From: Mangrovibacterium diazotrophicum
Lineage (GTDB): Bacteria; Bacteroidota; Bacteroidia; Bacteroidales; Prolixibacteraceae
Length of the DNA stretch: 64,000 nt
Assembly (NCBI RefSeq): GCF_003610535.1
Contig: NZ_RAPN01000001.1
Location: forward strand, 2,901,320-2,965,319
Direction: 5' to 3'
The notes beneath the pieces are model-generated. The model had not been told where the DNA came from and did not search any database. It saw only the letters and a program-made list of their open reading frames with translations. Both the position numbers and the translations under genes were made by a program. This document shows positions 10,613 to 51,797 of this stretch, one piece after another (positions within the stretch are counted from its first letter, which is position 1; every line of letters starts with the position of its first letter).

Positions 10613-10620
10613 TATATTTG
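10613..10620 (+). promoter_or_regulatory. Candidate -7 promoter element of module A
   Basis: TATATTTG fits the Bacteroidota TAnnTTTG consensus. It lies 51 bases before the TTCAG of the leader element, close to the spacing at the other two copies (53 and 72). The -33 element is not clear. Confidence 0.5.
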
Positions 10621-10670: not shown

Positions 10671-10711
10671 TTCAGAAGCTCCCCAACGCTGTAACTGAAT
10701 CGGCGAAGCCG
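10671..10711 (+). promoter_or_regulatory. Leader element, copy A (proposed antiterminator recognition site)
   Basis: TTCAG at 10671, GTAACTGA at 10691-10698, a 3-nt gap, then GGCGAAGCC at 10702-10710. The end can fold as CGGC-GAA-GCCG. The same order and near-identical spacing recur at 24561 and 49750. Lies 105 bases before the first gene of module A. Function as a UpxY/RfaH-type site is inferred. Confidence 0.6.
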
Positions 10712-10815
10712 TAGGAGCAATCAGCTTTAATCATCATTCCACAACTCTTTTCAAATTTGCAGAAATAAACTTCTGTGACTATACGTATCTGTACTATTCT
10801 TATTCAAAAATATAG

Positions 10816-12375: not shown

Positions 12376-12386
12376 AATTTAATTCA

Positions 12387-13940: not shown

Positions 13941-13953
13941 AAAATATAGGCAC

Positions 13954-15036
13954 ATGAAAAATACGAAAATCGGAATCCTAACCCTGCCATTCAATTACAA
14001 CTACGGAGGGATTCTTCAAACATACGCATTACAACGCTTCCTGATTGCAAACGGATACGACACCTACCATATTTACAGAGATTTTCCTGAAAAAAATAAA
14101 GCGACTCAAATCATAAAGGATCTCATCAAATTAATAATTGGCAAGAATAAAAAAACGCGTTTTGAAGGCACACTTATCCGAAAGTTTTTTGATGAGAAAG
14201 TCGTACCCAAAACCCATCGGATAAGAACCTTGTCGGATCTAAAGAAACTTCATAAATACGGGTTCACAACATTTATAGTCGGCAGCGACCAAGTTTGGAG
14301 AAAAGCATGTATTTACGGAGATTTGAAAACGAACTATTTCCTTGATTTCCCGAAAGATGATGTAAACAGGATATCGTACGCGGCATCGTTCGGTGTCGAC
14401 AACTGGGAGTTCACCTCGGAGGAAACGGTCAAACTTAAAACACTGTTGCAAAAATTCAGTGCGGTTTCAGTTCGGGAAAACTCCGGGATAAAGCTTTGTG
14501 AAGAACATATGGGAGTGGCCGCAAACCACGTACCAGACCCAGTGTGGCTCTTGAAGGCGGAAGACTATAGACAACTTATAGCGCAGGAATCCGAGCGAAC
14601 TGAAGTTAATGGAGAGTGCCTGGCTTACGTACTAGATAGTACCGACGAGAAGAAAAAAATCATCCAGGATGCAGCCGAAAAACTAGGCTACCAAACATTT
14701 ACGATAAGTTACGGCAACAACGGAGTCAAACCCTCGGTCATAACCTGGTTAAAGGCTTTTGCTGAAGCGAAATTTGTAGTCACCGATTCCTTCCATGGAT
14801 GTGTCTTTTCAATCCTGTTTAACAAGCCATTTCTTGTAATCGGGAACATAACCCGAGGTCTATCAAGATTTAGTTCTGTATTGAGCGAATTAAACCTTGA
14901 AAACCGAATGATATTCACAGAAAAAGATGACTACCTTGCCATAGTTGGAAAACCAATTGATTGGGATACCATCAACAAAGAGATTGAAGAAAAAAGAGCA
15001 AAAGCCCGAAACTTCATATTTTCTTCGATCAAATAG
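13954..15036 (+). CDS. Polysaccharide pyruvyl transferase family protein (SFHG type)
   Basis: A 360-residue cytoplasmic protein of the CsaB/WcaK-like pyruvyltransferase superfamily. Visible marks are the N-terminal NYGGILQTYALQRFL, GSDQVWRK near residue 110, the YFLDF and SYAASFG strands, VSVRENSG, the PDPVWLL block and the C-terminal TDSFHGCVFSILFNKPF. Characterised members add a pyruvate ketal to a sugar, or are sugar transferases of the same fold. The acceptor cannot be told from sequence. It sits between flippase and glycan-assembly genes, so a tailoring or transfer step on the repeat unit is likely. Confidence 0.85.
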   Translation: MKNTKIGILTLPFNYNYGGILQTYALQRFLIANGYDTYHIYRDFPEKNKATQIIKDLIKLIIGKNKKTRFEGTLIRKFFDEKVVPKTHRIRTLSDLKKLHKYGFTTFIVGSDQVWRKACIYGDLKTNYFLDFPKDDVNRISYAASFGVDNWEFTSEETVKLKTLLQKFSAVSVRENSGIKLCEEHMGVAANHVPDPVWLLKAEDYRQLIAQESERTEVNGECLAYVLDSTDEKKKIIQDAAEKLGYQTFTISYGNNGVKPSVITWLKAFAEAKFVVTDSFHGCVFSILFNKPFLVIGNITRGLSRFSSVLSELNLENRMIFTEKDDYLAIVGKPIDWDTINKEIEEKRAKARNFIFSSIK

Positions 15037-15133
15037 TACGAACACCGTTCGATGAAAAATATCATTAGTCAAATTTATTCAAATAACAGACCAATAGTCT
15101 GACGAACGAGTCTTACAAGATAACCCAGAACAA

Positions 15134-16099
15134 ATGAATAAATCGCAGATTACCACCTTGAAGCTACTCCGAAAAATCTACTCAAGCTTTTCTGGCAGAT
15201 CTGAATCAACAAAACCGGTTTCAGAAAGCGACCCTGATATAGTTTCCAACATCATTTCCGAAAAATTGACAAGTGGCTCACCGACGATGATTGCGCGGTA
15301 TGGTGCTTTTGAGTTGAAAACCGTAACCTGCTACATGGATCAGAAGACAAATGAAAATCGGTTAGTGAACTACTTAAAAGGAAAATCAGAAGGCTGGTGG
15401 TGGGACAGTGAATTGATAGCACACATGCAAAACAATGCTGGGTTTTTCCCCCCGACTGAAGAGAACCTAGCTCGTTTCAGCCAACTCATGATTAACGACA
15501 GCCAGTATGTGGACGTTTTGGGAAGCTGGCTACCCAGGGAGAAACGAATTGGCACACTCCCTGAAAACCACCTGAAAGTTGATCTGGAGCTTTTAAATCC
15601 ATTTTTCTCAGCAGCCCCATGGACAAAAGCCTTGGAAGAAAAAAAGGTCTTGATTGTTCATCCTTTTGTTCGTTCAATCAAAGAACAGTATCAACAAAAA
15701 GACAAAATATTCCCCAATGGACTACTCCCCAATTTTGACATGAAGATTATTCAGGCAGTACAAAGTATCGGTGGGCGCAATGACGACTTTCGTGATTGGT
15801 TCGAAGCGCTGGACTTCTTGAAACAGAAAATTGACGAACAAGATTTCGACATTTGCCTGCTGGGATGCGGCGCATATGGCTTTCCACTGGCTGCACATAT
15901 AAAGAGACTGGGGAAAAAAGCATTTCACTTGGGAGGAAGCCTTCAACTCCTGTTTGGCATAAGAGGAGCCCGATGGGAAAACCCCAACTACAACCCAATT
16001 TACAACTATTCAGCTTTAATGAATCAGTATTGGATTAGACCCCAAATGAACGAAACACCGTCAAATTCAAAAAAAGTTGAAAACGGATGTTATTGGTAA
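15134..16099 (+). CDS. Putative GT-D-fold glycosyltransferase-like protein
   Basis: A 321-residue soluble protein. The segment TMIARYGAFELK near residue 55 resembles the R-Y/F-G-x-x-E motif of GT-D (DUF1792) glycosyltransferases, and the C-terminal half ends with GAYGFPLAAHIKRLGKKAFH then LGGSLQLLFGIRGARW, a block I associate with polysaccharide-locus proteins of this kind. The canonical GDGE acidic motif is changed to GAFE, so catalysis is uncertain. No membrane segment. It stands alone with about 100 bp gaps on each side, within module A. Assignment is by motif memory only. Confidence 0.55.
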   Translation: MNKSQITTLKLLRKIYSSFSGRSESTKPVSESDPDIVSNIISEKLTSGSPTMIARYGAFELKTVTCYMDQKTNENRLVNYLKGKSEGWWWDSELIAHMQNNAGFFPPTEENLARFSQLMINDSQYVDVLGSWLPREKRIGTLPENHLKVDLELLNPFFSAAPWTKALEEKKVLIVHPFVRSIKEQYQQKDKIFPNGLLPNFDMKIIQAVQSIGGRNDDFRDWFEALDFLKQKIDEQDFDICLLGCGAYGFPLAAHIKRLGKKAFHLGGSLQLLFGIRGARWENPNYNPIYNYSALMNQYWIRPQMNETPSNSKKVENGCYW

Positions 16100-16224
16100 A
16101 CAATTTGTTCCTTTCATGAACGAACGAAACACTTCCATTCATCATACTAATTATCGATATGAGTTAAGTTCGACCCCTCAATACAACTTTTCACACACTG
16201 TGTGATTGTAATAAACGACCAACC

Positions 16225-17538
16225 ATGAAAACATACTATAACAAACTATTTCCAATATTGATAGTGTCTATTACTTTTACATCCGTTAACCAATGGAGTA
16301 AAATAGAAATTGGCAATACCGCTGTTACTATGGCGCTCTCTCTGTTTGTCATTATTCTTTGTGTCTTTTATTTTAAGCAATATTTCAAAAGTTTTTCGAA
16401 CCTAAAATATTTGACATTAAAATTATATTTCGCTTGGCTTGTAATCAGTGTTATTCGAGGCTGTATAATAGCTGAAAATTACTGGGAATGGAAACAGCTA
16501 ATGTCTGCATCCCTGGCATTATCACTCCCCATCTTGATTTTCCCATTTGATAATCCAATGCTACTCCACCGCGTTTTGAACAAGTGGTTCATTTACGCTA
16601 CTATAGCTTTCTTTGCTGTATTCATTTGGATCACCGGACGAGACGCAAAACATTATTACCTCGGGCCAATGTTACTTGTGGCATGCTTCATCCCTGCATT
16701 AAAACCAAAGTGGCAGATAGTTTTTCTTTTCTGTATCATATTGATGCTCATAGGTGACTTTGGAGCCCGAAGCCAAGTAATCAAAAGCGCCCTTGCTATT
16801 CTATTCTCGCTTTTCTTTCTATTACGAAAATTTATTAGCAACCGTCTTCTGAAAGTAAGCCATTGGTTGTTCTACATTCTACCAATTCTACTGCTCTACT
16901 TTGGTATAAGCGGAAAATTTAACGTTTTTGAGGACTTATCCAAGGATAATAAGTATGTTAGCAAGAAAGTCGTAAACGGTAAAGTTGTAAAAGAAAACTT
17001 AGCCGGAGACACACGAACTTTTATATATTATGAGGTCATTAGTTCAGCGATTAAACACAATTATGTGATCTTCGGAAGGACTCCCGCCAGAGGGAATGAT
17101 TCTAAACAATTTGGAGAAAAAATTGCAGAAGAACTAAAGACAGACAAGCAAGAAAGACATTCTAATGAAGTCTGTTTCCCAAACGTATTCACTTGGCTGG
17201 GACTAATAGGTATGTTATTGTATTGCTCGATGTATCTAACATCCTCTTATTTAGCAGTCTATAGATCAAACAATATCTACACTATGATTATTGGTGTATT
17301 TATTGCATTTCACTTTGCTTTCGGATGGATAGAGGATTTCAATCGTTTCGATATTTCGAATATCTCATTGTGGATGGCTATTGCTATAGGTTACTCTAAT
17401 AAATTTAGGTCTATGTCAAATCGCGAGTTTAAAATCTGGATTAAAACGATTTTCGCTACACGTCGCCCTAAAGCTAAACTCGTCTTCCTTTGGTCATTAA
17501 CAAAAGGCGACCAAATTAAATCGGTCTCAAACCACTGA
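16225..17538 (+). CDS. O-antigen/capsule polymerase candidate (Wzy-like)
   Basis: A 437-residue protein with about ten to twelve hydrophobic helices and one large polar loop (about residues 230-310, containing GDTRTFIYYEV and FGRTPARGND), the usual plan of Wzy/O-antigen ligase proteins. A basic tail ends the chain. Polymerases of this class join lipid-linked repeats on the outer face of the cytoplasmic membrane. Similar-plan genes occur at 30156 and 56469, so each polysaccharide module has its own candidate. Sequence conservation in this family is low, so function rests on topology and context. Confidence 0.75.
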   Translation: MKTYYNKLFPILIVSITFTSVNQWSKIEIGNTAVTMALSLFVIILCVFYFKQYFKSFSNLKYLTLKLYFAWLVISVIRGCIIAENYWEWKQLMSASLALSLPILIFPFDNPMLLHRVLNKWFIYATIAFFAVFIWITGRDAKHYYLGPMLLVACFIPALKPKWQIVFLFCIILMLIGDFGARSQVIKSALAILFSLFFLLRKFISNRLLKVSHWLFYILPILLLYFGISGKFNVFEDLSKDNKYVSKKVVNGKVVKENLAGDTRTFIYYEVISSAIKHNYVIFGRTPARGNDSKQFGEKIAEELKTDKQERHSNEVCFPNVFTWLGLIGMLLYCSMYLTSSYLAVYRSNNIYTMIIGVFIAFHFAFGWIEDFNRFDISNISLWMAIAIGYSNKFRSMSNREFKIWIKTIFATRRPKAKLVFLWSLTKGDQIKSVSNH

Positions 17539-17606
17539 TTAAGATACTTAACGAGAGATTAAATATTACTGATTCCTTACTTCAAAATCCAGTCAATATC
17601 TTTCCT

Positions 17607-18695
17607 ATGAAAATTGCATATACTTATCAAGGTATCACAAGCCACCGTATAGGAGGCGTATCAAGATATTTCTTCGAAATTATATCAAGATTGCAACCTC
17701 GCGCTGAAATATCTATTTTAGGCAAATATTCTAAGAATATTTATTTTGAGGGAATGATCGACAAAAGTGAATTCTTGAGAAACCTCAGATTTAAAGGTAA
17801 AGCAAAACTGGAATTTCTAATACAGGAGCATAATCAAAAAACACGACTCAGAAAACACAATTTTAACATTATACATCATACAGGGGAAGGTCTGAGTGTT
17901 TTCAAACAAAGTAATAATACTCCCGTTATAATCACGATCCATGACTTTATTCCCGAAATATTCAACTACCAACCGCATAGGATTAAGATCAGAGAACAAG
18001 CGATAAAAAATGCATCCGCAATTATATGTGTTAGTGAGAATACCAAGAAGGATTTATTAAACTTTTTTCCAAAAATTGAGCAAGAAAAGGTTCATGTAAT
18101 TTACCACGGTTTCACAAGCCAATCCAAACACTATTCCGAGAACAAATTAGGGAATTACATCCTCTACGTAGGAGCACGAACAGAATACAAAAACTTTGAA
18201 TATTTTACCCGAGCTATAGTGCCAGTACTAATAGAACATGACATTAAGTTGGTTTGTACAGGCCAACCTTTTAGTTCATATGAACTTGAACTGATTCAAT
18301 CGCTTGAAATTGGTACAAGAACTATTAATGTTGGATTTGTAGACGACAATACTTTAAACACTCTATACTACCATGCTCGTTGTTTTGTTTACCCTTCTCT
18401 CTACGAAGGATTCGGAATACCAATTTTAGAGGCCTTTGGCAACAGATGTCCAGTCTGCATCAGTGATACCTCCTGTTTCCCGGAAATAGCAGCTGATGCA
18501 GCTTGCTACTTCAACCCAAAAGACAAGAACTCGATCAAACAAAATCTTGAAAAAATTCTCACTGATGACTCATATCGACAAAAATTAATCGAAATAGGAA
18601 CCGAAAGATTGACTTTCTTTTCTTGGGACAAAGCGGCTAGCGAAACCCTAGAAATATACAAGAAGACTATTGAAAACGCCAGCAAAATTGACTAG
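17607..18695 (+). CDS. Glycosyltransferase family 4 (GT-B fold)
   Basis: A 362-residue cytoplasmic protein with the N-terminal acceptor half beginning YTYQGITSHRIGGVSRYFFE and a C-terminal donor half with the GT4 signature YEGFGIPILEAFG (the E-x7-E pair) and VGARTEYKNFEYF just before it. It would transfer a sugar from an activated nucleotide donor onto the lipid-linked repeat. The gene lies 68 bp after the Wzy candidate and 33 bp before a second GT4. Sugar and linkage unknown. Confidence 0.88.
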   Translation: MKIAYTYQGITSHRIGGVSRYFFEIISRLQPRAEISILGKYSKNIYFEGMIDKSEFLRNLRFKGKAKLEFLIQEHNQKTRLRKHNFNIIHHTGEGLSVFKQSNNTPVIITIHDFIPEIFNYQPHRIKIREQAIKNASAIICVSENTKKDLLNFFPKIEQEKVHVIYHGFTSQSKHYSENKLGNYILYVGARTEYKNFEYFTRAIVPVLIEHDIKLVCTGQPFSSYELELIQSLEIGTRTINVGFVDDNTLNTLYYHARCFVYPSLYEGFGIPILEAFGNRCPVCISDTSCFPEIAADAACYFNPKDKNSIKQNLEKILTDDSYRQKLIEIGTERLTFFSWDKAASETLEIYKKTIENASKID

Positions 18696-18728
18696 GTTTC
18701 TAATTCCCCTTTTTAAAAATATCCAGCA

Positions 18729-19934
18729 ATGAAACAAATACTACTTTCAGCGTTTGGTTGTAACCCCTATAAAGGCTCCGAATCCGCAAGTGGTTGGAAC
18801 TGGGCAATAGAATTAGCTAGCCAAGGATATAGTGTTCATGTCCTTACTCGCTCAGATAGCAAACCAGATATTACGAAACACCCTCCAGTTGACAATCTGC
18901 ATTTTCATTTCATTGGACTAAATAATGGTCTAGAAAAGCTTTACACTTTTTCCATACCAACGATGTATCTCTACTACATACTCTGGCAATGGAAAGCATA
19001 CCGCATTGGCAAAAGTCTTCACAACAAATACTTATTCCACCGAGTACATCATGTTTCATGGGGTAGTTTCCAACAAGGTTCTTTCCTTTACAAAATAAAG
19101 ACACCTTTTATTTTTGGACCTACTGGAGGTGGCCAAAAGGCTCCTGAGTCATTCAAGGAGTACTTCCTGCAAGGCTGGGAAAATGAAATCAAGAGGGAAA
19201 AGATCAGTGCGTTATTCCTTCGGTTCAATCCTGCTTGCCGCAACATGTTGAAAAAGTCATCCGCTGTTCTAGTTTCAAACACCGAAACCATGGAGGTAGT
19301 TAGGGCTGCAGGAGCCCCAAAAATATTTTACTCTCTAGATTCCGCTCTATCAAGTGATTTTTTTCCCAAACAATTACCACTAAGAAACCCTTCATTAAAT
19401 AGAATGCGGCTTCTCTGGGTTGGAAGATTTATGCCAAGGAAAGGTCTCCCGCTTGTCATAGAAGCAATGAGCCGACTGAAGGAAAATAAAGGTATAACTC
19501 TCACAATCGTTGGAGATGGTGAATTAAATGACCACGCCAGGCGAATGGTCTCTGAATTAGGATTAAATGAATCCGTAAAATTCACTGGTCTACTACCATT
19601 TTCTGAAGTTAGGAACTACTACAACACCCACGACGTTTTTTTCTTCACCTCACTTCGTGATTCAGGCCCTGCCCAACTAATTGAAGCAATGGCATTTGGA
19701 TTGCCTGTCGTATGTCTAAATCTACATGGGCAAGGATACATTGTATCTGACAAAACAGGAATTCGCGTACCTGTTACTACGCCGTCAATTGTTGTTAAGG
19801 AATTAGCCGACGCAATTAACTATCTAGCGAGTAATCCTCAAATTTATGAACGGATGAGTAGGGCTGCCTATGAATTTGCACGCCAACAAGAATGGAGCAA
19901 TAAAGTCGCAACTACTATTCGCCAACTCTATTAA
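18729..19934 (+). CDS. Glycosyltransferase family 4 (GT-B fold)
   Basis: A 401-residue protein. The start MKQILLSAFGCNPYKGSESA with GWNWA is typical of a GT4 subgroup common in Bacteroidota exopolysaccharide loci, followed by the FGPTGGGQKAP loop. The donor half shows LLWVGRFMPRKGLPLVIEAM, TIVGDGEL and SGPAQLIEAMAFGLPVVC. Cytoplasmic, no membrane anchor. It forms a run with the GT4 before and the GT2 after (gaps of 33 and 23 bp), consistent with sequential sugar additions to one repeat unit. Confidence 0.88.
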   Translation: MKQILLSAFGCNPYKGSESASGWNWAIELASQGYSVHVLTRSDSKPDITKHPPVDNLHFHFIGLNNGLEKLYTFSIPTMYLYYILWQWKAYRIGKSLHNKYLFHRVHHVSWGSFQQGSFLYKIKTPFIFGPTGGGQKAPESFKEYFLQGWENEIKREKISALFLRFNPACRNMLKKSSAVLVSNTETMEVVRAAGAPKIFYSLDSALSSDFFPKQLPLRNPSLNRMRLLWVGRFMPRKGLPLVIEAMSRLKENKGITLTIVGDGELNDHARRMVSELGLNESVKFTGLLPFSEVRNYYNTHDVFFFTSLRDSGPAQLIEAMAFGLPVVCLNLHGQGYIVSDKTGIRVPVTTPSIVVKELADAINYLASNPQIYERMSRAAYEFARQQEWSNKVATTIRQLY

Positions 19935-19957
19935 CCTATTCTAACTTTAAATGATCT

Positions 19958-20788
19958 ATGAAATCAATCGCGGTTCTTCTAACAGTGTTTAACCGAAAAG
20001 AAAAGACATTGGCATGCCTTCAATCATTTTTTAATGCTGACCTTCCAGCAGAACTAAACTCACTGGAAGTATTTCTTGTAAATGACGGGTGCACAGACGG
20101 AACTCCAGATGCCGTAAAGGCGGCATATCCTTCGGTCAATATCATCAACGGTACAGGAAATCTCTTTTGGAATAGAGGTATGCATCTTGCTTGGAAAGAA
20201 GCTACACAAATAAAAATCTACGACTACTTTCTATGGATAAATGATGACACCTTTTTCTACACCCATGCTCTCCAAGCTCTTTACAAAACTACGATCCTAT
20301 ACAACGACGAAAGAATTGTCGTTGGTACAACCTGCGCCGTTAATAATTCCAAAGTGATCACTTACGGAGGCAGAGATAAAAACGGCTCTCTGATTATTCC
20401 TCAAGAATATCCCACTGACTGCGGCTTCTTTAATGGAAACATCGTATTAATTCCGTCATCTGTTTTTGAGATCGTCGGCATGAACGACCCTTGTTTCAGA
20501 CATGCATTAGGAGATTTTGACTACGGACTTCGGGCATCAAAACTAGGCATTAAATCCGTTGTAGCTCCCGGAATACTGGGCAAATGCGACGAACACGAAA
20601 GTTTAGCGACTTGGTGCGATCCTGCAAAATCGCTTTCCAAAAGATGGAAAGCTTTCAGGTCTCCATTGGGACAAGATCCCGAAGAGTTTTTTATATTCGA
20701 AAGCAGACATAATGGCTTATTGAAAGCTTGCTTTCATTATTTAACAAACCACTTACGTGTACTCGCCCCATGGATTTGGACAACTTAA
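19958..20788 (+). CDS. Glycosyltransferase family 2 (GT-A fold)
   Basis: A 276-residue protein of rhamnosyltransferase-like GT2 type. N-terminal VLLTVFNRKEKTLACLQSFF is the nucleotide-sugar binding start, VNDGCTDGTP the first acidic motif, and WINDDTFF (Asp-Asp) the metal-binding DxD equivalent. GDFDYGLRASKLG supplies the later ED-type acidic motif. It is last in module A and converges on the reverse-strand beta-helix gene 81 bp later. No terminator is seen in that short gap. Confidence 0.87.
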   Translation: MKSIAVLLTVFNRKEKTLACLQSFFNADLPAELNSLEVFLVNDGCTDGTPDAVKAAYPSVNIINGTGNLFWNRGMHLAWKEATQIKIYDYFLWINDDTFFYTHALQALYKTTILYNDERIVVGTTCAVNNSKVITYGGRDKNGSLIIPQEYPTDCGFFNGNIVLIPSSVFEIVGMNDPCFRHALGDFDYGLRASKLGIKSVVAPGILGKCDEHESLATWCDPAKSLSKRWKAFRSPLGQDPEEFFIFESRHNGLLKACFHYLTNHLRVLAPWIWTT

Positions 20789-24499: not shown

Positions 24500-24508
24500 T
24501 AATTTTAG
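24500..24508 (+). promoter_or_regulatory. Candidate promoter element of the antiterminator gene
   Basis: TAATTTTAG resembles the -7 consensus with one change and lies 53 bases before the TTCAG of leader copy B. The consistent spacing with the other two copies is the main reason to list it. Confidence 0.4.
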
Positions 24509-24560: not shown

Positions 24561-24599
24561 TTCAGGAACATACAACGGGTAACTGAGGTGGCGTAGCCA
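24561..24599 (+). promoter_or_regulatory. Leader element, copy B (upstream of the antiterminator gene)
   Basis: TTCAG at 24561, GTAACTGA at 24579-24586, 3 nt, then GGCGTAGCC at 24590-24598. The end folds as TGGC-GTA-GCCA. Compared with copy A the closing pair changes from C-G to T-A with pairing kept. About 400 bases before the UpxY-type gene, suggesting self-regulation (inference). Confidence 0.6.
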
Positions 24600-24997
24600 T
24601 TTTTAAAGCTCAAAGAAAACACCTCAATACCACCAGAAAATAAATAGAAAACATGTTTTTCATGTACCGAATTCCAACGAAAACACAGAACAGATAAGAC
24701 AAAAAACTAACGTTCTAAACTGCCGGCATATGTCACTTCATATATCGGCAACTAAAGCTTCTGACTGCAAAAAATGCAGCTGCAAAATACAGTTGTTTTT
24801 GTCCTTCCATTGGCCGGGATAAAAACACGTTGAGTTGATTTAAAAGACCATTGCCCTAAAATAGTTTATTTTTAGGCGATGCCTTAACTGAACTAGCGAG
24901 CTATTGCGGTCAATCCGGAACATAATTGACTCTCATTCGAACTTTTAAATAAAAGCGTTGCGGATAATTTGCAGAGTTCGGTTAAAACTTGTGAAAC

Positions 24998-25534
24998 GTG
25001 AAAAAGAATGTAAACTGGTATGCGATTTATGTAAAAGCCCGCCACGAGCGAAAGGTCTTGGAGGCTTTACTCCGAAAGGAAATAGAGTGTTATTTACCAC
25101 TGCGAACGGAGACCCGTCAATGGAGTGACAGAAAGAAAGAGGTGGAAGAACCGCTCATCCGTGGTTACTTGTTTGTTCGCATCAATATTCGGAGCTATTA
25201 CGATGTACTTGTCATCCCCGGGGTTATTAGTTTTGTAGCTTTCGACCAAAAACCAGCGGTCATCCCCGACTATCAAATTGAAGACCTGAAAATATTCCTT
25301 CGCGATGGAGGCAAAGACATCGAAGTCACGAACGAACATATCCAAAAAGGTCAGTTGGTGCAAATCAACGAGGGACCATTAAAAGATGTTATTGGAGAGG
25401 TGACCGAGTTGCGCGGAAAAAAACGAATTCTTATTCGAATAAAAGCACTTGGCTGTTTAGTACTTGCCGAACTGGGAGTTAACCAAATTGAACGATTCAC
25501 CGAGGACACCCCAATGCCGTCTGCAAAAAAATAG
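24998..25534 (+). CDS. UpxY-family transcription antiterminator (NusG N-terminal domain)
   Basis: A 178-residue NusG/RfaH paralogue. The NGN domain starts WYAIYVKARHERKVLEALLR and contains LPLRTETRQWSDRKKEVEEP and LIRGYLFVRI; a C-terminal KOW-type segment (about residues 120-170) includes GQLVQINEGPLKDVIGEV. In Bacteroides, UpxY proteins act on the leader of the capsule operon they belong to and prevent early termination. The start is GTG at 24998, immediately after an in-frame stop. Here it has one clear downstream partner (Wzi, 25910) but shares a leader element with modules A and D, so its reach may be wider. Only one such gene is in the window. Confidence 0.92.
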   Translation: MKKNVNWYAIYVKARHERKVLEALLRKEIECYLPLRTETRQWSDRKKEVEEPLIRGYLFVRINIRSYYDVLVIPGVISFVAFDQKPAVIPDYQIEDLKIFLRDGGKDIEVTNEHIQKGQLVQINEGPLKDVIGEVTELRGKKRILIRIKALGCLVLAELGVNQIERFTEDTPMPSAKK

Positions 25535-25909
25535 AAAAAGCACGCAGATCAAAGTTAGCGGAACAGTTAATGATAGAATTGACCTTTGCCCATAAAATAC
25601 AATTTGAATAAAACTGATTTGACAAAAGTCAGGAGAACAAACGCTGACATTGCTCGCAAACAAGCCACAATGATTTAAAAAGTAAAACTCACTAATCTGA
25701 TGTAGTATTACATCACGATCACCGAGTATCACTAATCACCGGCATACAATGCTAATCGCGAAATTATCGATTTTTAAATAATAATAAATTAACGAATATA
25801 CAGCTGACTGTTCCGATGATTATTCAGAACTTGGGATGAAAACCAGTCCGCGCCTTTAAGACACCTGATGAAAGAGTACAAAACGAACAACAAACTCATT
25901 AAGAGAGGT
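25535..25909 (+). other. Non-coding gap before the first Wzi gene
   Basis: About 375 bases without a recognisable gene, AT-rich in its middle part. No leader element copy and no clear terminator were found. A start at 25868 for the next gene would shorten the gap by 42 bases. Confidence 0.6.
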
Positions 25910-27535
25910 ATGAAGACGCAAAACACGATCATTGGATTAATTCTTTGTTTAAATCTACAAGCCCAGGTTCCGGCAGACACCACTAGCAACCCGATTCTTC
26001 ATAATTACAATCAAAACCTGGTTGCACTTTCCGCTGGCAACGAACGCCAAAACATACTACCAGGTGGATTAGAAAAACCTGTTCCTGCAGTAACAACCGC
26101 CCATTCACAATCCATCGCACCAATATCCGAAGAGAATACCTACGGTGCGTTTATGACAGCCGGCTTATTTGCCACCACCGACGGAACCGTTCCCTTTTGG
26201 ATGCGTAGTCGTCGCTTTGGCAGTATTCCCGCTGATGGTTTATCGGCATCAATAATTGCCGGAGCACACAAAGAATATGACAATACTCCAAACCAGCTAT
26301 TTGCTTGGGGAGCAGGCGTCGAAGCGCGATTCAATGCTGCTTCAAACAGCGAACTAATTCTAATTGAAGGATACACCAAAGGTCGACTGGGAGTCTTTCA
26401 ATTGAAAGCAGGACGCTTCCGCGAAACCACTGGACTGGTCGACAGCACCCTCTCCAGCGGTGCGTTTTCGGTATCCGGTAATGCGCTGGGCATTCCGCAA
26501 ATACAAATCGGATTTCCCGATTATTGGGATGTTCCACTAACAAATGGTGTGTTTGCGTTGAAATGGAGCTTGGTGCACGGATGGATGGGAACATACACGA
26601 TTAACGATGACGACGGTAATCTAAGGCTGGAAACCTACCTGCATCAAAAGTCCATCTATGGGAGATTAGGCAAACCAAGTTGGAAAGTCAAGTTTTATGC
26701 CGGTCTGAATCACCAGGTGACCTGGGGAAACGAAAAGCAAATCTACCCCAGTTGGGGCCTGTCAAACTTTGAAACATACAAATACGTTTTTCTTGGTAAA
26801 GCTTACGGCACTTCAAGCATCCCCGAATCAAAAGTGGGTAATCATCTGGGATCTATTGACCAAGCCATGGAATGGGACATGAAATCCGTATTGTTTACCG
26901 GCTACCACCAGTTTTTCTACGACATTGGCGGGCTTGCCAAGTTGTCGAACGCCAAAGACGGCCTCTGGGGAATTAGCTTAAAAAATAAAAGCCCAAAAGA
27001 AAGTAGCTGGCAATGGCAAAAGTTTCTCGTTGAATTTCTGTACTCAAAAAGCCAGGGAGGTGAAGTCGATTCAAAACCACGTCCGTCGGGCGCAGAAGAT
27101 TATTATAACAACTTTTTATATTACGAAGGATGGTCCTACCAAGGTGAGAACTTGGGGAATCCTTTGTTTACAACCAAAAAATACATTCAAGAAGGTTACC
27201 CGGCGAAAAGCTACCAGTATTACCCGAACAACCGATTGATGGCCTTTCACGGAGGTGCCGACTTCAGCGTCTATGACTGGCAATGTCGGGCGCTTTTAAC
27301 CTACTCGGTGAACTGGGGAACCTACTCCACCAGCCCTGCCGAGCGATCATTGGGAGACAGAATCGTTTATCACGATCCGCCTTACTTTCCAGAGATAAAC
27401 CAATTCTCTGCCCTCGTGGAAACCCGCAAACCACTGCGTAATGGGTTCGAACTGGGACTGCAATTTGCCATTGACCAGGGAGACCTGCTGTACAATTCGG
27501 TTGGCGGCGGCGTTACGCTGACCAAGAGATGGTGA
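25910..27535 (+). CDS. Capsule assembly Wzi-family outer-membrane protein (copy 1)
   Basis: From ATG 25910 a signal peptide (MKTQNTIIGLILCLNLQAQ) is read directly; an upstream ATG at 25868 would add 14 polar residues and is less likely. About 541 residues. The Wzi family beta-barrel is shown by FWMRSRRFGSIPADG, AGAHKEYDN, GRFRETTGLVDSTLSSGAFS, GNALGIPQIQIGFPDYW, and the closing FAIDQGDLLYNSVGGG then VTLTKRW. Wzi proteins sit in the outer membrane and hold or organise capsule at the cell surface. It pairs with the antiterminator upstream. A clear paralogue opens module D at 50009. Confidence 0.9.
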   Translation: MKTQNTIIGLILCLNLQAQVPADTTSNPILHNYNQNLVALSAGNERQNILPGGLEKPVPAVTTAHSQSIAPISEENTYGAFMTAGLFATTDGTVPFWMRSRRFGSIPADGLSASIIAGAHKEYDNTPNQLFAWGAGVEARFNAASNSELILIEGYTKGRLGVFQLKAGRFRETTGLVDSTLSSGAFSVSGNALGIPQIQIGFPDYWDVPLTNGVFALKWSLVHGWMGTYTINDDDGNLRLETYLHQKSIYGRLGKPSWKVKFYAGLNHQVTWGNEKQIYPSWGLSNFETYKYVFLGKAYGTSSIPESKVGNHLGSIDQAMEWDMKSVLFTGYHQFFYDIGGLAKLSNAKDGLWGISLKNKSPKESSWQWQKFLVEFLYSKSQGGEVDSKPRPSGAEDYYNNFLYYEGWSYQGENLGNPLFTTKKYIQEGYPAKSYQYYPNNRLMAFHGGADFSVYDWQCRALLTYSVNWGTYSTSPAERSLGDRIVYHDPPYFPEINQFSALVETRKPLRNGFELGLQFAIDQGDLLYNSVGGGVTLTKRW

Positions 27536-28710
27536 TTGAAGGAATGAGGGAATGAAGGACCGATGGATTGATGGATTGACTAATTAGCCATTTACAATTG
27601 ACAATTTAGGGAAAGTTTCAACACCGGTTACAGTTAGCAGTAACGAGTCATGAGTCGTAAGCGACTATGCCCCAACGGGGCAACAGCAACAGCCTGCGGC
27701 AACGCCGTAGGATAGAGAGCGCCCCCCAATCCCCCCAAAGGTTGCTCGAAGCACAACGGCCCAAAAAGAGGGATTAGCGATTGGGCAGAGGGCAAAGAGC
27801 GCAGAGCCAAAAGTAAAAATTCACAACCTACCATTGACGATTGACACTTAAAAATCGCAGAGTACGCGGAAAAAACACAGGGCATTTACTATCTACAATT
27901 TACCATTGACAAATAAAACCGCAGGGCGGTTGACACTATTGTAGAAAACGATCTACCATTAACCATTAAAACCGCGGAGCGGTGAAATATTTGTAGTTTC
28001 AACAAACATCCCCTGCCCCGCAAGGTCGCTCGAAGCACATCGTTCCCAAAAAGGGATTAGCGATTAACGATTCGGGATTAATGATTGAAGATTTGGAAGA
28101 AGGCAAAGTGCATGGGGCAGAGAGCCAAGAGTAAAAATTCACAATCTACCATTGACGATTGACAATTAAAGAACGCGGAGAAAACACAGGGCATTTACTA
28201 TATACAATTTACCATTGACAAATAAAACCGCAGGGCGGTTGACATTATTGTAGAAAACGATCTACCATTATCCATTAAAACCGCGGAGCGGTGAAATATT
28301 TGTAGTTTCAACAAACATCCCCTGCCCCGCAAGGTCGCTCGAAGCACATCGTTCCCAAAAAGGGATTAGCGATTAACGATTCGGGATTAACGATTGAAGA
28401 TTGGGCAAAGGGCAAAGGGCGCGGAGCCAAGAGTAAAATTAACGATGTACAATTAACAATTAAACCCGAGAAATAGACGCGAAGATTGACGACAGATCAC
28501 CGGATATTAGACAAAAAATGCTGTGAACAAACCGAAAAACTGAAATACGCTACACGTAACAATTCAACTTTATTCAACAATTCAACAACTCTTAACGTAT
28601 TGTAAAACAGATTGCCTTCGATTTGAATTAAACGTAATTTTATTCCCAACATTGGTTCTATACCATGGAATTCTAAATTATGTATAAACCCATCAATTAA
28701 CCTTTAAAAA
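27536..28710. other. Repeat-rich non-coding region
   Basis: No gene is seen over about 1.2 kb. Most of it is the roughly 309-bp direct repeat described separately, built of short phrases such as GATTAACGATT, CCATTGACAA and CCGCGGAGCGGTG. The last 270 bases are AT-rich and may hold the promoter of the gene at 28711, with a weak TAATTTTA at 28635-28642. Confidence 0.7.
27741..28440. repeat. Direct repeat of about 309 bp, one full copy and two partial copies
   Basis: Marker phrases recur 309 bases apart: GGCATTTACT at 27881 and 28190, AAGGTCGCTC at 28022 and 28331. The two later copies are nearly identical over about 200 bases. An older, more diverged partial copy precedes them (GGATTAG phrase about 283 bases upstream). 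Contains paired GC-rich phrases (CCGCAGGGCGG, CCGCGGAGCGG) that could form small hairpins. Confidence 0.85.
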
Positions 28711-29463
28711 ATGAATGGAGATACAAATCGAAAGTTTAATTGCAGGAATGAAGAGTTACCTGTGATTTGCGGCTTCGTAGCCGACAGTCTGAACCGCGAC
28801 CTGGCCGACTTCAGCCAGTTTTCGCCGAAGTACAGTGAAACCTACGTGAGCGATTTTCGCTCGGCCATTGATGCTGTTACCGAATTGGTTACACCGCGCG
28901 AGGAGACCTTGCAGGTGAAACTGCTTACCGAGCAGATTTATAACTTGCAAAGCGAACTCGCCGACCAGCTGAACCGATTACAGGCATACCTGGACATGGC
29001 CGGCAAGAGTATTCCACTATCCGCAAGCGATTTCGGAATTCTTCCTTGCCGCCGAAAGATACACCAACATGAAACCGAAGGTGTAATGCAGGCTCTAAAG
29101 TTGGTCATGAATAACGTGGCCCGCTACAAAACGCCCTTGAATGAACAGGGAATGAGCGATGAGTTTGAAGCCCGGCTCCAGGCCATCTCGTCCGAACTTT
29201 CAACGGCTGTACAAAAGCGTTACGAACTGGTCTCGCGACGAGCCGAACTGGTGCAGGACAACATGGGCGAGCTGAATGCCCTGTTCGAACAAATGAACCT
29301 GATTTGCAAAACGGGTAAGGCGCTGTATAAAAACAACAACCCGGCCAAAACAAAGGATTACACGTTTAGCCATTTGCTGAAGCAGATCAGACGCCCGAAA
29401 GCTGCCGAGCCGCAACCCGACGAAAACGACGAATCGGGTATTAACGCCGAAGCAGCCGAGTAA
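28711..29463 (+). CDS. Hypothetical helical protein
   Basis: A 250-residue soluble protein I do not recognise. It has no signal peptide or membrane helix. Long stretches are predicted helical by eye, with coiled-coil-like spacing at about residues 70-100 (VKLLTEQIYNLQSELADQLN) and 155-210. The C-terminus is acidic (EPQPDENDESGINAEAAE). Codon use and GC look like the conserved part of the genome rather than the AT-rich glycan modules. It lies alone between two repeat zones, followed by a palindromic repeat, a terminator-like hairpin and the 21-bp tandem repeat. Composition and length support a real gene. Confidence 0.7.
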   Translation: MNGDTNRKFNCRNEELPVICGFVADSLNRDLADFSQFSPKYSETYVSDFRSAIDAVTELVTPREETLQVKLLTEQIYNLQSELADQLNRLQAYLDMAGKSIPLSASDFGILPCRRKIHQHETEGVMQALKLVMNNVARYKTPLNEQGMSDEFEARLQAISSELSTAVQKRYELVSRRAELVQDNMGELNALFEQMNLICKTGKALYKNNNPAKTKDYTFSHLLKQIRRPKAAEPQPDENDESGINAEAAE

Positions 29464-29479
29464 AGAGCCTCTCTGAAAC

Positions 29480-29572
29480 CGTCATTGCCTGCCCCGCTGG
29501 ACAGACGGGCGAGGACGCGGCAAATCTTTACCGCTATAAGCAACAAATTGCTTCACTCCGTTCGCAATGACG
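29480..29572. repeat. Palindromic REP/MITE-like repeat copy
   Basis: Bounded by CGTCATTGC at 29480 and CGCAATGACG ending at 29572, an inverted pair. The inner part carries the AAATTGCTTCACTCCG phrase of the family also found at 38.9, 39.5 and 40.9-41.3 kb. Confidence 0.75.
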
Positions 29573-29590
29573 GGATACGAATGAATTTAT

Positions 29591-29634
29591 AAACCTCAGC
29601 TTAGAGGTACACAATACCAACAGGCTGAGGTTTT
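29591..29634 (+). terminator. Terminator-like hairpin after the hypothetical gene
   Basis: A perfect 10-bp stem (AAACCTCAGC 29591-29600 with GCTGAGGTTT 29624-29633) contains a smaller inner GGTA/TACC stem and ends in a short T run. It is 128 bases after the stop of the gene at 28711 and directly before the tandem repeat. Confidence 0.55.
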
Positions 29635-29635
29635 C

Positions 29636-29929
29636 CGGCGCCTTGCTGCAAACATCCTCTGGCTCTTGCAAGGCAACCGAATGCTTCTGCAAACGTACAT
29701 AGCGCTTTTGCAAAATAATAACTTGCTCCCGAAACTCATCCAAAGCGGGATGCAACGTACCAGGATGCTTCGGCAAAACAACCGAACATTTCCGCAAACG
29801 AACACGATGCTCTTGCAAAGCGTGCAATACGCGATGCAAACGAACACGATGCCGTTGCAAAACTGCCGAACCCTTGTGCAAAGCCGGCAAAGGCAATTAT
29901 AAAACCGGCAACAGCGATTGCAAGCGCTG
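29636..29929. repeat. Tandem repeat, 14 units of exactly 21 bp
   Basis: The stretch divides without gaps into fourteen diverged 21-base units of the type CGAATGCTTTTGCAAACGAAC; the most conserved core is TTGCAAA or TGCAAA. The period equals seven codons and about two turns of DNA. Frames on both strands stay open across it, giving heptad-like translations, but no start, product or domain is convincing. Confidence 0.85.
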
Positions 29930-30155
29930 CAGACAAAATAAACCAGAGAAGAAGGCATAACCCAAAGGGCAAAAGGCTAAACTGAAAACGGCCAACTTTT
30001 GCAACCGGATGCCAACAACTTAAAGCTTGACACTTGAGGCTCAAGCGCAAAACGCCTAACCCGCAACACGTATTAAAACACCCTATCCATCGCCGTTGGC
30101 GAAGCGGGGAAACCTTGCCGCAAATACAGAAAAAGCCACTAGCAGATCAACAAAA

Positions 30156-31415
30156 ATGAAACCCAATAATAAATTCTATCTATACTACCTGCTTATATGC
30201 TACATACTCGGTGTTCTACTCTACGATTTCATCGGTTTTGACTATACTGATGAAATCCTATTGCTGGTTTTAGTAACCAACACTTGCTACAACCTGCTAA
30301 CCAACAGGGTTAAAAAGAGAAAAGATCTGACTGAGGTTGCTATCGTGATTCTTATTTTTATCTCGTATTTATGCTATTCTTTAGCGATAAAGTCAAATAC
30401 TCATAAAGCAATTTTTTCGGATTTCGTCATACAACTAAAACCTTTTTTAGCATTCTATTGCATATATCTAACGGATTTTAGCTTAGCAGATAACGACAAA
30501 AAAATAATCCGCACAACGGCCGTATTTTCAACAATTTATATTGGAAGTATTACGCTCTTTGGGTTAGGAACAGGAACGTTTGATAATACTATTAAATCGT
30601 TCTTCGGACATCCTTCCAGATATGCTACAACAATTACGATCACAAGTGTACTTTACCTGTATGCTTGTTCTACGTTTTCGTTCAAGCAAATCCTAAGTGC
30701 TATCCTAATTCTCAGTATTGGATTATTCTCCTTCCGCTCTAAATTTTTCGGATTCTTTGTTGCTGCAATCGCGACATTGTTACTCAGAAACCGCATCGAA
30801 TTAAAAATAAACTTAAAAAATACAATTGCTTCAATCGTGATTGTAGCATCAATTATTGTAGTTGCTTACTCTAAGCTTTCATACTATTTTGTTGAAGGAA
30901 GCCAGAACGGAGAGATTTATGCACGCCCTGCGTTGTACATGACATCCATTAAAATCTTGTCAGACTACTTCCCTCTCGGAAGCGGCCTGGGAACATTCGC
31001 GACTCATGCATCTGCTGTAGATTATTCTCCGTTGTACGATCAATATGATTTGTCAAGTGTTTTCGGTCTTACCCCTGACAAGCGGTCGTTTATAAGTGAT
31101 ACTTTCTTCCCTTCTTTAGCTCAATTTGGATTTCTTGGCACCATTCTTTTCTTTACTTTCTGGGTGAGATTATTCAAAAAGATTCGCATATACAGCTCTA
31201 TTAAATCGCCTGTGGCTACGCAGTTAATTACCATATCTTTCCTTATCCTACTATTTCTATTCATTGAATCGATTGCTGATTCTACTTTTACTCAAAACAG
31301 AGGACTTTTTACTATGCTGCTACTAGGTTTATCGATGAATGATATGCACCACGAAGCGGTCAAAAATATCTGCCGTTTAAATATTTTGAATAAGAGTGTT
31401 CTACTTTATAAATAA
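30156..31415 (+). CDS. O-antigen/capsule polymerase candidate (Wzy-like)
   Basis: From ATG 30156 (MKPNNKFYLYYLLICYILG) a 419-residue membrane protein with about 11-12 hydrophobic helices. The frame is open to 30096 but that part is polar repeat-derived sequence. The segment DYFPLGSGLGTFATHAS is the characteristic loop of O-antigen ligase/polymerase (Wzy_C type) proteins. Opens module C, followed by a flippase 41 bp later. It would polymerise the repeat unit built by the downstream glycosyltransferases. Confidence 0.8.
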   Translation: MKPNNKFYLYYLLICYILGVLLYDFIGFDYTDEILLLVLVTNTCYNLLTNRVKKRKDLTEVAIVILIFISYLCYSLAIKSNTHKAIFSDFVIQLKPFLAFYCIYLTDFSLADNDKKIIRTTAVFSTIYIGSITLFGLGTGTFDNTIKSFFGHPSRYATTITITSVLYLYACSTFSFKQILSAILILSIGLFSFRSKFFGFFVAAIATLLLRNRIELKINLKNTIASIVIVASIIVVAYSKLSYYFVEGSQNGEIYARPALYMTSIKILSDYFPLGSGLGTFATHASAVDYSPLYDQYDLSSVFGLTPDKRSFISDTFFPSLAQFGFLGTILFFTFWVRLFKKIRIYSSIKSPVATQLITISFLILLFLFIESIADSTFTQNRGLFTMLLLGLSMNDMHHEAVKNICRLNILNKSVLLYK

Positions 31416-31456
31416 AAATTCTCGAAGCTAATTCGTCCTATCCTTTAATACCTAAA

Positions 31457-32998
31457 ATGAGTGGAAATCTAAAAAAGTCTGTTGTTAATACTGGCTTTAT
31501 GTATGGGAAGATGGTTGTATCGATGGTTACGACCTTTGTTGGAACGCGAATTGTACTGGAACAATTAGGGGCTGAAGATTTTGGACTCTACAATTTGATT
31601 GCAGGTATTACAGCGATGTTAGGCTTTTTCCGAAGTTCTCTTTCAACCAGCAATCAAAGGTATTTATCTCTGGCATTGGGAGCTGAAGACAACAAAAGGC
31701 TCCAGGAAGTTTTCAACTCATCCAAAGTATTACATTTAGTATTATCAATTAGCTTGATCGTTGCACTTGAGGTAGTCGGAATTTACCTCATCTACTATAA
31801 ACTGGATATCCCACCTAATAGCACGGAATTAGCTTTAATCATTTTTCAGTTTCTAATTTTCGACATTGCTTTTTCAATTACATCCATACCTTATTCTGCC
31901 CTCATCTCATCGCATGAAGATATCCATGTCATTGCGATTCTCTATACTCTTGACGCTATTGGAAAATTTGCTGTTGCTTTGCTCCTGATATTTATTCAGA
32001 GCAATCAATTAATCGTTTATGCAGCAGGTTTAACAGTTACTTTTACGTTATCACGAATGGCTCTGCAACTCTATTGCAAACACAAATACAAAAACCTGAG
32101 TTATAAATTTGTCTTTCGAGGAAATAAAGGCTTAATGAAAGAAATATTTTTCTTCACTGGGTACAGTTCCTTCGGTGCAATAAGCGACTTGGTCAGAACA
32201 CAGGGCATTGGGGTTGTACTTAACCTTTTTTTTGGTGTCCTCATCAATGCTGCTTATGCCTTGGTTTTGCAGATAAACGGTCAACTCCGTTTTTTTGCCA
32301 GCAGCCTAATGATGACGCTCAACCCACAAATTATTAAAGCTGAAGGCAGTGGCGACCGGGTTAAAATGCTGGAATTAGCCCTGCAATCAACGAAGTTTTC
32401 CTTCTTTATTTTAAGTTTTGTGTCCATTCCTATATATTGGCAATTACCCAATATCCTGGACATCTGGTTAAAAGACGTGCCAAAATATACATTAGAGTTA
32501 GCACGTCTCATCATTATTCAAGCTTTAATTTATCAACTGACCAGTGGTATTCATACAGCCATTAATTCTATTGGTAATATCAAGAAATATCAAATCATAT
32601 CGAGTTTCATTTATTTAATGACACTCCCGCTTGGCTATTTTACTCTTAAAGCAGGCTACGGGGTAAGTTCGATCTTATATATTTCCATAGCTATTGAAAT
32701 AATAGTCTTTTGTTTTCGAATCCAGTACTTAAATAAGTTGAGTCACTTTCCTATAGTAGATTTTTTAAAGAAAACATTTAGATATACACTCCTCCCAGTT
32801 ATTACAGCAACTATAATCATTATCGGATTTTATAAAAGCATCTCCGAGCTTAACCAATACCTGGCAATTACAGTAGCGTTCGTTATTTCTTCATTAACAT
32901 CAATAACATCAATCTATTTTATTGGATTGGGAAAAGACGAACAAAGCCTGTTGATCAAACAATTCAATTTATTCTACGCAAAATATACCGGAATATGA
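31457..32998 (+). CDS. Polysaccharide flippase (Wzx-like) of module C
   Basis: A 513-residue MOP-superfamily membrane protein of the same subfamily as those at 10816, 12387 and 51798: NTGFMYGKMVVSMVTTFVGT, GAEDFGLYNLIAGITAMLGF and the NAAYALVLQINGQLRFFASS central block. It transports lipid-linked repeat units. Its stop overlaps the start of the next gene by four bases (ATGA), showing translational coupling with the FrhB-like protein. Confidence 0.9.
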   Translation: MSGNLKKSVVNTGFMYGKMVVSMVTTFVGTRIVLEQLGAEDFGLYNLIAGITAMLGFFRSSLSTSNQRYLSLALGAEDNKRLQEVFNSSKVLHLVLSISLIVALEVVGIYLIYYKLDIPPNSTELALIIFQFLIFDIAFSITSIPYSALISSHEDIHVIAILYTLDAIGKFAVALLLIFIQSNQLIVYAAGLTVTFTLSRMALQLYCKHKYKNLSYKFVFRGNKGLMKEIFFFTGYSSFGAISDLVRTQGIGVVLNLFFGVLINAAYALVLQINGQLRFFASSLMMTLNPQIIKAEGSGDRVKMLELALQSTKFSFFILSFVSIPIYWQLPNILDIWLKDVPKYTLELARLIIIQALIYQLTSGIHTAINSIGNIKKYQIISSFIYLMTLPLGYFTLKAGYGVSSILYISIAIEIIVFCFRIQYLNKLSHFPIVDFLKKTFRYTLLPVITATIIIIGFYKSISELNQYLAITVAFVISSLTSITSIYFIGLGKDEQSLLIKQFNLFYAKYTGI

Positions 32999-34164
32999 AT
33001 ATTTCAAGTACGCCTTCATTCTTAAACACCCTGAAGAAAGAAGAGTGTTATGGCTGCATGGCATGCGTAAATGCGTGTGGAACTGATTCTATTTCCATAA
33101 CAAGAGACTCAGAAGGATTTATCTACCCTGCTGTAGACAAAAATAAATGTATTCTTTGTGGGAAGTGTGCAAAAGTGTGCCCTCTGGTCAATGAACCGCC
33201 CGAATTACAAGAAGGGCAAGAAGTATACTACGCTTGGTCAAACAATACACAAAACCGATTAGATAGTTCATCAGGTGGTATTTTCTCGGAAATAGCAACA
33301 ACAGTTCTATCAAATAACGGGTTAGTATATGGCGCTGCTTATGCAAATGATATGAGCGTCGTTCATATCAAAATAACAACTAAAGAAGAACTACCCAAAA
33401 TAAGGGGATCAAAGTATATACAAAGTGATATTAGCCCAACCTTTAAGACCATAAAAGCTGACCTAAAAGCTGGGAAGCTTGTTTATTTTACAGGGACCCC
33501 GTGCCAAGTCAGCGCCATAAAAAAATTCACGAACAATCCAGACAATCTTATTACTTCAGACTTAGTATGTCACGGTGTACCTAGTTCTAAAATGTTCCAG
33601 GACCAACTCTCCCTATTCGATCAAAAGATCAACAACATAAGCTTTAGAGACAAAAAAAGAACCGGATGGGGATATGATTTAAGATTAGTTAGCGACAATA
33701 AGACATGGAGAATGGAACCATTGGCCCTACCCTATTTTTATGGTTTTTGGAAGAATCTAACATTACGTCCATCCTGTTATAATTGCCAATTCGCAACTAT
33801 TAACAGAGAGGGAGATATAACCTTGGCTGACTATTGGCTAGTAAGGAAATCACACCCAAGTATAAAAACAGGGAAAGGAGTTAGCGCTATTATAGTTAAC
33901 ACTGATAAAGGTTGTAAAATAATAGAAGATTTAAACAATATAACAGTTGAAAAGTCTTCTATGGTTAATCTATTAAAAGGATTGGGTCGACTAAAATCTC
34001 CCGTAAAAAAACCCCAAAGCCGTGACCTAATCATGCTAGAATATTCACAAAAAGGATTTAGCTATATCGCAAAAAATTATTTGATGCCTCCCCGACAGGT
34101 GATTCTCAAAGAAAAAGCACTAAGAGGACTCAAGCAATTAATATTGTTCAAATACTGGAAATAA
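32995..34164 (+). CDS. FrhB/FdhB-like iron-sulfur protein of polysaccharide loci
   Basis: A 389-residue cytoplasmic protein. The N-terminus holds two classic 4Fe-4S motifs: Cys18, 21, 24, 28 (CYGCMACVNAC) and Cys52, 55, 58, 62 (CILCGKCAKVCP). The rest is the coenzyme F420 hydrogenase beta-subunit-like domain, with SSGGIFSEIA, GTPCQVSAIKKF and CHGVPSSKMF. Similar proteins are common in bacterial glycan loci beside pyruvyltransferase-family genes; F420 itself is not expected in Bacteroidota, so a flavin is the likelier cofactor (inference). It overlaps the flippase by 4 bp and precedes a pyruvyltransferase-family gene by 4 bp. Confidence 0.87.
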   Translation: MNISSTPSFLNTLKKEECYGCMACVNACGTDSISITRDSEGFIYPAVDKNKCILCGKCAKVCPLVNEPPELQEGQEVYYAWSNNTQNRLDSSSGGIFSEIATTVLSNNGLVYGAAYANDMSVVHIKITTKEELPKIRGSKYIQSDISPTFKTIKADLKAGKLVYFTGTPCQVSAIKKFTNNPDNLITSDLVCHGVPSSKMFQDQLSLFDQKINNISFRDKKRTGWGYDLRLVSDNKTWRMEPLALPYFYGFWKNLTLRPSCYNCQFATINREGDITLADYWLVRKSHPSIKTGKGVSAIIVNTDKGCKIIEDLNNITVEKSSMVNLLKGLGRLKSPVKKPQSRDLIMLEYSQKGFSYIAKNYLMPPRQVILKEKALRGLKQLILFKYWK

Positions 34165-34168
34165 CATC

Positions 34169-51700: not shown

Positions 51701-51797
51701 ACCAACATAGAACTACAATAAAATCTTTTCTGCTCCTGGAAATGTAATTACAATCGAGCAAAAATATAAGCCCTCAACATCAACAGAACACTCTCTC

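Follow-up and report, generated by a model that had tools for sequence, protein, structure and literature searches.

The window, a 64,000-nt stretch of the Mangrovibacterium diazotrophicum genome, carries three copies of a short element, here called A, B and D. A first-pass annotation had placed each copy ahead of a polysaccharide module or of the gene for an UpxY-type antiterminator, and the Pfam content of modules A, B and D agrees with this placement. The features are listed below; for module D the annotation covers the first genes only.

10613..10620, plus strand: promoter-like box TATATTTG of copy A (sequence, TAnnTTT scan; kept in sister genome G104, L075)
10671..10699, plus strand: hairpin of copy A, TTCAG 10671-10675 with CTGAA 10695-10699, inner AGC/GCT (isolated-piece fold)
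10691..10712, plus strand: element of copy A, GTAACTGA-ATC-GGCGAAGCCGT (motif and genome searches)
10816..20788, plus strand: module A, with two MatE flippases, pyruvyl transferase, glycosyltransferases and two proteins without Pfam match (Pfam)
24500..24507, plus strand: promoter-like box TAATTTTA of copy B (sequence, TAnnTTT scan)
24561..24586, plus strand: hairpin of copy B, TCAG 24562-24565 with CTGA 24583-24586 (isolated-piece fold)
24579..24600, plus strand: element of copy B, GTAACTGA-GGT-GGCGTAGCCAT (motif and genome searches)
24998..25534, plus strand: upxY-type antiterminator, 178 aa (NF033644, PF02357, AlphaFold2, Foldseek)
25868..38831, plus strand: module B, with Wzi, Wzy-like (below Pfam cut-off), flippase, FrhB-like, pyruvyl transferase and glycosyltransferases (Pfam)
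49671..49678, plus strand: imperfect promoter-like box TAATTTAG of copy D (sequence)
49750..49776, plus strand: hairpin of copy D, TCAG 49751-49754 with CTGA 49773-49776, inner TTACA/TGTAA (best fold, 63-nt and isolated)
49769..49790, plus strand: element of copy D, GTAACTGA-CGA-GGCGAAGCTAT (motif and genome searches)
50009..55451, plus strand: first genes of module D, namely Wzi, flippase, nitroreductase-family protein and pyruvyl transferase (Pfam)

The first-pass annotation had proposed that a spaced motif starting at 10671, 24561 and 49750 on the plus strand, with 13-15 nt between TTCAG and GTAACTGA, is the recognition element of the antiterminator. A search with TTCAG-N12..16-GTAACTGA-N3-GGCGWAGCY confirmed the motif by three exact matches in the window, all on the plus strand (10671-10710, 24561-24598 and 49750-49788) and with spacers of 15, 13 and 14 nt in copies A, B and D, while 100 dinucleotide-preserving shuffles contained none. 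The conserved portion of the window element is GTAACTGA-N3-GGCGWAGC-YRT. The 5.8 Mb genome contains its core GTAACTGANNNGGCG at three places, all inside the window, and the reversed pattern at none. When up to two mismatches were allowed, GTRACTGANNNGGCGNAGC gave 13 genome matches compared to 14 for the reversed control, and the sole notable one besides the three exact sites was GTGACCCAGTTGGCGAAGC, which adjoins a second upxY on another contig. Numerous copies at unrelated genes, the outcome the annotation had named as contrary to its proposal, were absent from the host genome in both the core and the two-mismatch search.

A TAnnTTT box 50-75 bases upstream had also been claimed for all copies. 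This holds for A (58 nt) and for B, where the match is TAATTTT 61 nt 5' of TTCAG, but D has an imperfect box at 79 nt and gave no match in a TAnnTTT scan over 140 nt. Likewise, the long untranslated leader described for each copy does not extend to A, whose leader is short, the ATG at 10816 following the element by ~106 nt. A terminator scan of leader B returned one weak candidate (24776-24796) at chance level, and none was found in leaders A and D. An invertible promoter was considered and set aside, as inverted repeats were only short or AT-rich, the longest being 21 nt at 76%.

The protein encoded at 24998 scored 154 bits against NF033644, for which the cut-off is 100, and also matched PF02357; it consists of a NusG N-terminal domain and a predicted beta KOW domain. 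Both the NusG N-terminal fold and the beta KOW domain are present in its AlphaFold2 model (mean pLDDT 84.5, pTM 0.60). NusG and RfaH were among the Foldseek matches of this model, and by sequence the protein is closest to RfaH among solved structures (E 1.7e-9). Free RfaH has an alpha-helical, autoinhibiting C-terminal domain, whereas the KOW domain of the window UpxY is beta in this one model, which gives a single state at lower pLDDT in that region. The adjoining polysaccharide operon lies 3' of upxY, with Wzi, Wzy-like, flippase and glycosyltransferase genes.

Relatives from the same family were searched with GTAACTGANNNGGCGNAGC, which occurred 39 times in 31 of 140 genomes, and once when reversed. 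As 122 of these 140 genomes encode an UpxY above the cut-off, mere co-presence with the element says little and its position is more telling. Among 20 loci of one genus, 19 of which were chosen for element and upxY on one contig with strand playing no part in the selection, the element lay on the strand of upxY and downstream of it in all 20. At 30 family upxY loci, the class pattern defined below was found on the same strand in 9 and on the opposite strand in 1 (reversed, 1 and 0). In 39 non-redundant family sites, TAnnTTTG preceded the element by no more than 130 nt in 26, stood farther off on the upstream side in 1, was never downstream, and occurred upstream but on the minus strand in 5; TAnnTTT, a looser box, was less telling, with 28, 7, 10 and 18 in the same four places. 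The upstream placement of TAnnTTTG suggests that the element is probably transcribed early. TTCAG itself was dropped as a part of the sequence motif because a different sequence takes its place beyond the genus, such as CTCA pairing with TGAG; what had been annotated as conserved sequence fits better as the 5' arm of a hairpin and was retained as such.

The linkage to upxY was next followed across 392 Bacteroidota genomes, 197 of which encode an UpxY at E 1e-28 or better. At 69 phylum upxY loci (29 from survey matches and 40 chosen to cover a range of genera), the pattern G[TG][AG][AG][CG]T-N5..7-GCGNAGC was present within 1.5 kb of upxY on the same strand in 29 and on the opposite strand in none, with 0 and 0 for the reversed pattern. 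The loci with the pattern represent 20 of 42 protein clusters, and the strict element was absent near 40 of the 69 loci. The bare GCGNAGC core was enriched only about twofold (50 vs 26 of 69). Since the pattern was written after the survey loci had been viewed, it was tried unchanged on 27 new loci among 30 from another family, where it occurred on the same strand in 17 and on the opposite strand in none (reversed, 0 and 0). For 38 loci of mixed phyla, the corresponding numbers were 16 and 0 (reversed, 1 and 2), and class relatives also adjoin UpxY genes in Shewanella-labelled (L014, L021, L022) and Acidobacteria-labelled (L042) records. An unbiased word search 5' of upxY recovered GCG.AGC in 9 of 20 clusters on the plus strand vs 1 of 20 on the minus strand, at rank 14 among the listed words in a search swamped by the coding start; in Bacteroidaceae loci, part of them wrongly oriented, it found no word.

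Whole genomes were searched with TGTGACT-N6-GCGNAGC, which gave 91 matches in 72 of the 392 genomes and 13 for the reversed control by hand count. UpxY is encoded by 65 of these 72 genomes compared to 132 of the other 320 (p 4e-15). When 31 UpxY positions were compared, 22 of the 91 matches lay within 2.5 kb of an UpxY on the same strand and none on the opposite strand. Not every match accords with the expectation that matches in relatives would lie only 5' of glycan operons. The genes 3' of 30 TGTGACT-class loci were upxY or of glycan type in 21, with upxY itself in 7 and export, nucleotide-sugar dehydrogenase, asparagine-synthase-type or sugar-modifying genes in the remaining 14 (8 labelled by Pfam match, 6 by eye from the first residues). 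At the other 9 loci, the element is followed by Cas6, a TonB plug protein, a sheath-like protein or unknown genes, or no open frame of 110 aa follows it.

The location near promoters and 5' of related operons could also befit a mere companion of glycan operons, either a double-stranded DNA operator bound by an ordinary transcription factor or a riboswitch for a small molecule. We regard this as highly improbable, given that the element is strand-specific, lies downstream of the promoter, is tied to upxY itself and is only ~40 nt long, with no Rfam match above the gathering threshold in the window. Instead, the strand-specific linkage, the holdout, the promoter position and the covariation described below provide good support for the assignment of the window element to a class, G(T/G)(A/G)ACT-N6-GCGNAGC-YRT, that adjoins upxY genes. 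It is also well supported that the element is of the kind used by UpxY-type antiterminators. The annotated role as recognition element therefore stands as to kind, in that the element tracks upxY by strand and distance across the phylum, whereas reading of all three copies by the protein at 24998 is something we infer (see below).

On a tree of 159 UpxY rows, the strict element was present in 63 and absent in 96, and this label was clustered, with 26 changes compared to 49.6 after shuffling. Unlike the class of the window, the Bacteroides-type clade is without the strict element (0 of 27 rows); the leader contains a looser GCGTAGC in at least 6 of these rows. At the loci examined, Bacteroides-type UpxYs of the WYALYVRMHHEKK and WYAMRATYRREL types had no GCGNAGC core within 400 nt upstream. 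Six Mucilaginibacter loci (L018, L025, L026, L028, L029 and L030, ~3400-3900) contain 3-5 tandem elements ~120 nt apart just 5' of upxY, mostly TGTGACTGGATTGGCGGAGC and often ending with GTGAGTGAGTTGGCGAAGC, perhaps as an array of loading sites. G265 (L257-L260) has several TGTGACTGAG-NG-TGCGAAGCCGTACNAA copies before genes without a clear glycan role, which may be a separate repeat. The sequence TGTGACTG(A/T)AT(A/G)GGCGTAGCTTCTTCAA is common to L266-L268 of the three genomes G523, G410 and G445 (family f48), in which no UpxY was found at E 1e-28.

The upstream half-site of the element tends to pair with the sequence directly upstream of it. In 85 sites, the mean longest stem was 5.00, compared to 4.60 with swapped upstreams (reached in 0 of 200) and 4.30 with shuffled ones (0 of 100). 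Stems of at least 5 bp occurred at 39 of the 85 sites, a number within what swapped upstreams gave (mean 34.5, largest 45), while the stems of the other 46 had at most 4 bp. In 17 held-out sites, the mean stem was 6.41 vs 4.89 for shuffled and 5.55 for swapped upstreams (0 of 500 each). Folds of isolated pieces contained the hairpin in all three window copies, while folds of 63 nt contained it in D only, with A and B favouring other structures. Relative to the inner stem of copy A, G104 carries a compensatory change from AGC/GCT to AGTC/GACT, with TCAG/CTGA and the unpaired GTAA kept. Pairing of the half-site with its own upstream arm beyond the controls raises the possibility that the signal is read in RNA rather than in non-template DNA, and there is precedent in LoaP, another NusG paralogue, which binds an RNA hairpin in the leader of long operons (PMC12691694, available parts). 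However, core and half-site are conserved in sequence beyond structure alone, many sites lack a long stem and the core retains the pause register of the E. coli ops site, and recognition in RNA is thus improbable in our judgement.

The ops sequence, GGCGGTAGCGTG, shares with the window element a 12-nt register of G1 G2 C3 G4 ... T11 R12. The register of the element is G1 G2 C3 G4 N5 A6 G7 C8 Y9 R10 T11 R12, with T11 in 88 and a purine at 12 in 104 of 125 sites; all three window copies have the G1-G2-C3-G4 start and T11, and copy B has T instead of a purine at 12. A 12-mer of the GGCGGTAGCNT type with a GNNA loop is absent, all three copies reading GGCGWAGC with one loop base fewer. In the ops-paused complex, according to the available parts of PMC5995543 and PMC11001881, the hairpin is formed by G2:C9, C3:G8 and G4:A7, with G1 closing the upstream duplex and TG at 11-12 needed for pausing. 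Both ops and the element have a loop closed by C-G that starts with G and ends with A, and both are early leader sites of long polysaccharide operons with a NusG-family factor, RfaH or UpxY. They differ in that the element has a GNA loop of three bases with one base between G and A, whereas ops has a four-base GNNA loop with two, and the tail of the element is one base longer. A further difference lies upstream, where the element has the conserved half-site GTRACTGA, itself part of a hairpin; the 12 nt of ops include neither feature. GNA and GNNA loops closed by G-C pairs are known to make DNA hairpins unusually stable, GCGAAGC melting at 78 C (PMC4686876, available parts). Under standard DNA energies, which may give no credit to such loops, a fold is obtained for the cores of A, B and ops and none for those of D and the consensus. 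The assignment of ops to the GNNA type and of the element to the GNA type is our own grouping; RfaH was not found together with a GNNA, mini-hairpin or GNA loop in the searched literature, as far as the accessible portions of these texts go.

In Bacteroides, UpxY is reported by Saba et al. 2024 to read such sites, recognising both the non-template strand and the duplex DNA where polymerase has paused, with nascent hairpins helping. The Bacteroides sites likewise serve a NusG paralogue of the UpxY family. Bridging of UpxY to upstream duplex DNA is credited to Saba et al. 2024 in the available part of PMC12691694, and no printed UpxY motif was found in the parts of the literature searched. The dfn leader of Bacillus velezensis, on which LoaP acts, similarly provides a short leader element needed by a NusG paralogue at long operons, but its signal is an RNA UNCG hairpin with no pause at the hairpin and a sequence unlike that of the window element.

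We propose that the element is likely a co-transcriptional pause-and-loading site for UpxY that resembles ops, and that in this genome one UpxY would use it at three operons including its own. RNA polymerase would leave the promoter and, ~50-95 nt on, pause when it reaches the T in GGCGNAGC-YRT. Within the bubble, non-template GGCGNAGC may form a mini-hairpin with G2:C8, C3:G7, a sheared G4.A6 and one loop base. Behind the polymerase, the upstream half GTRACTGA would already have re-annealed into duplex DNA, where it may help to pick the cognate UpxY. A nascent-RNA hairpin that has the GTRACTGA half-site as its 3' arm and ends ~14 nt behind the RNA end could lengthen the pause. UpxY would then dock, replace NusG and render the polymerase processive across the long polysaccharide operon. 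More tentatively, there may be two natural classes of loading sites for NusG paralogues with the same pause place, each built on one of the two known types of very stable DNA mini-hairpin. RfaH would use GNNA (ops, GC-GGTA-GC) and many non-Bacteroides UpxYs would use GNA (GC-GNA-GC), and the half-site of the latter, which would also form one arm of the RNA pause hairpin, would be an address code for the several UpxYs of a cell; we consider this possible but somewhat doubtful.

The host genome was searched by profile for its UpxYs, with four found above the curated cut-off in addition to one weaker NusG-like match. Three of the four have a class element nearby, GTAACTGA in the window, GTGACCCA in C3 and GTGGGTCA in C5, and none was seen near the fourth (C1:1485975). 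UpxYs of one genome can be seen to adjoin elements with differing upstream halves. As two other UpxYs adjoin GTGACCCA and GTGGGTCA, GTAACTGA would be left to the UpxY at 24998, and the simplest reading, drawn from sequence, is that this protein reads all three copies and controls the three operons and itself. A site of the same kind could instead serve no single regulon, with A and D being read by another UpxY or by several. The sister genome G104 speaks for this in that element A is kept exactly while its nearest relative of the window UpxY is only 44% identical, and the UpxYs of B. fragilis are known to work at their own operon leaders (PMC7593976, PMC7819879, available parts). Nevertheless, GTAACTGA is identical in A, B and D while two other UpxYs of the genome adjoin different halves, and genomes exist with several elements and one UpxY at threshold, such as G505 with five (L261-L264). 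Separate readers for A and D are hence unlikely in our view, and control of the three operons by the single UpxY at 24998 is the reading we prefer. The five G505 elements include two that precede UDP-GlcNAc 2-epimerase and UDP-sugar dehydrogenase genes and three that do not.

To the left of element A, G104 (L255, G104:C8:1656000-1675900, element at 11768) has genes 80-96% identical to window genes, and the promoter box and the element are kept; to its right, the glycan genes differ, with no gene more than 39% identical to window genes up to the end of the compared piece. It is as if the signal had been retained and its cargo swapped, and G104 warns against a fixed one-to-one pairing of element and UpxY. 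An element-like sequence, GTGGGTGAGTCGGCGAAGCCGT, is located at G104:C9:1738324 on the minus strand, away from the listed UpxYs of that genome, and is possibly a distant target.

For many of the UpxY-type factors in the 197 genomes above, the element may provide a searchable address. Regulons could be proposed from sequence, including operons that share a factor, factors that act at a distance and, as in G104, sugar-gene swaps behind a kept signal. The comparison with ops suggests that a very small hairpin of non-template DNA, held at a fixed pause, may be a structural device common to several NusG paralogues, with the choice of reader perhaps set by loop size and upstream half-site. How several UpxYs in a cell are kept apart thereby becomes testable. 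Elsewhere in the window, two pieces at 43008-44246 and 45014-45940, separated by a further open frame, each match the YjbH family at a different end.
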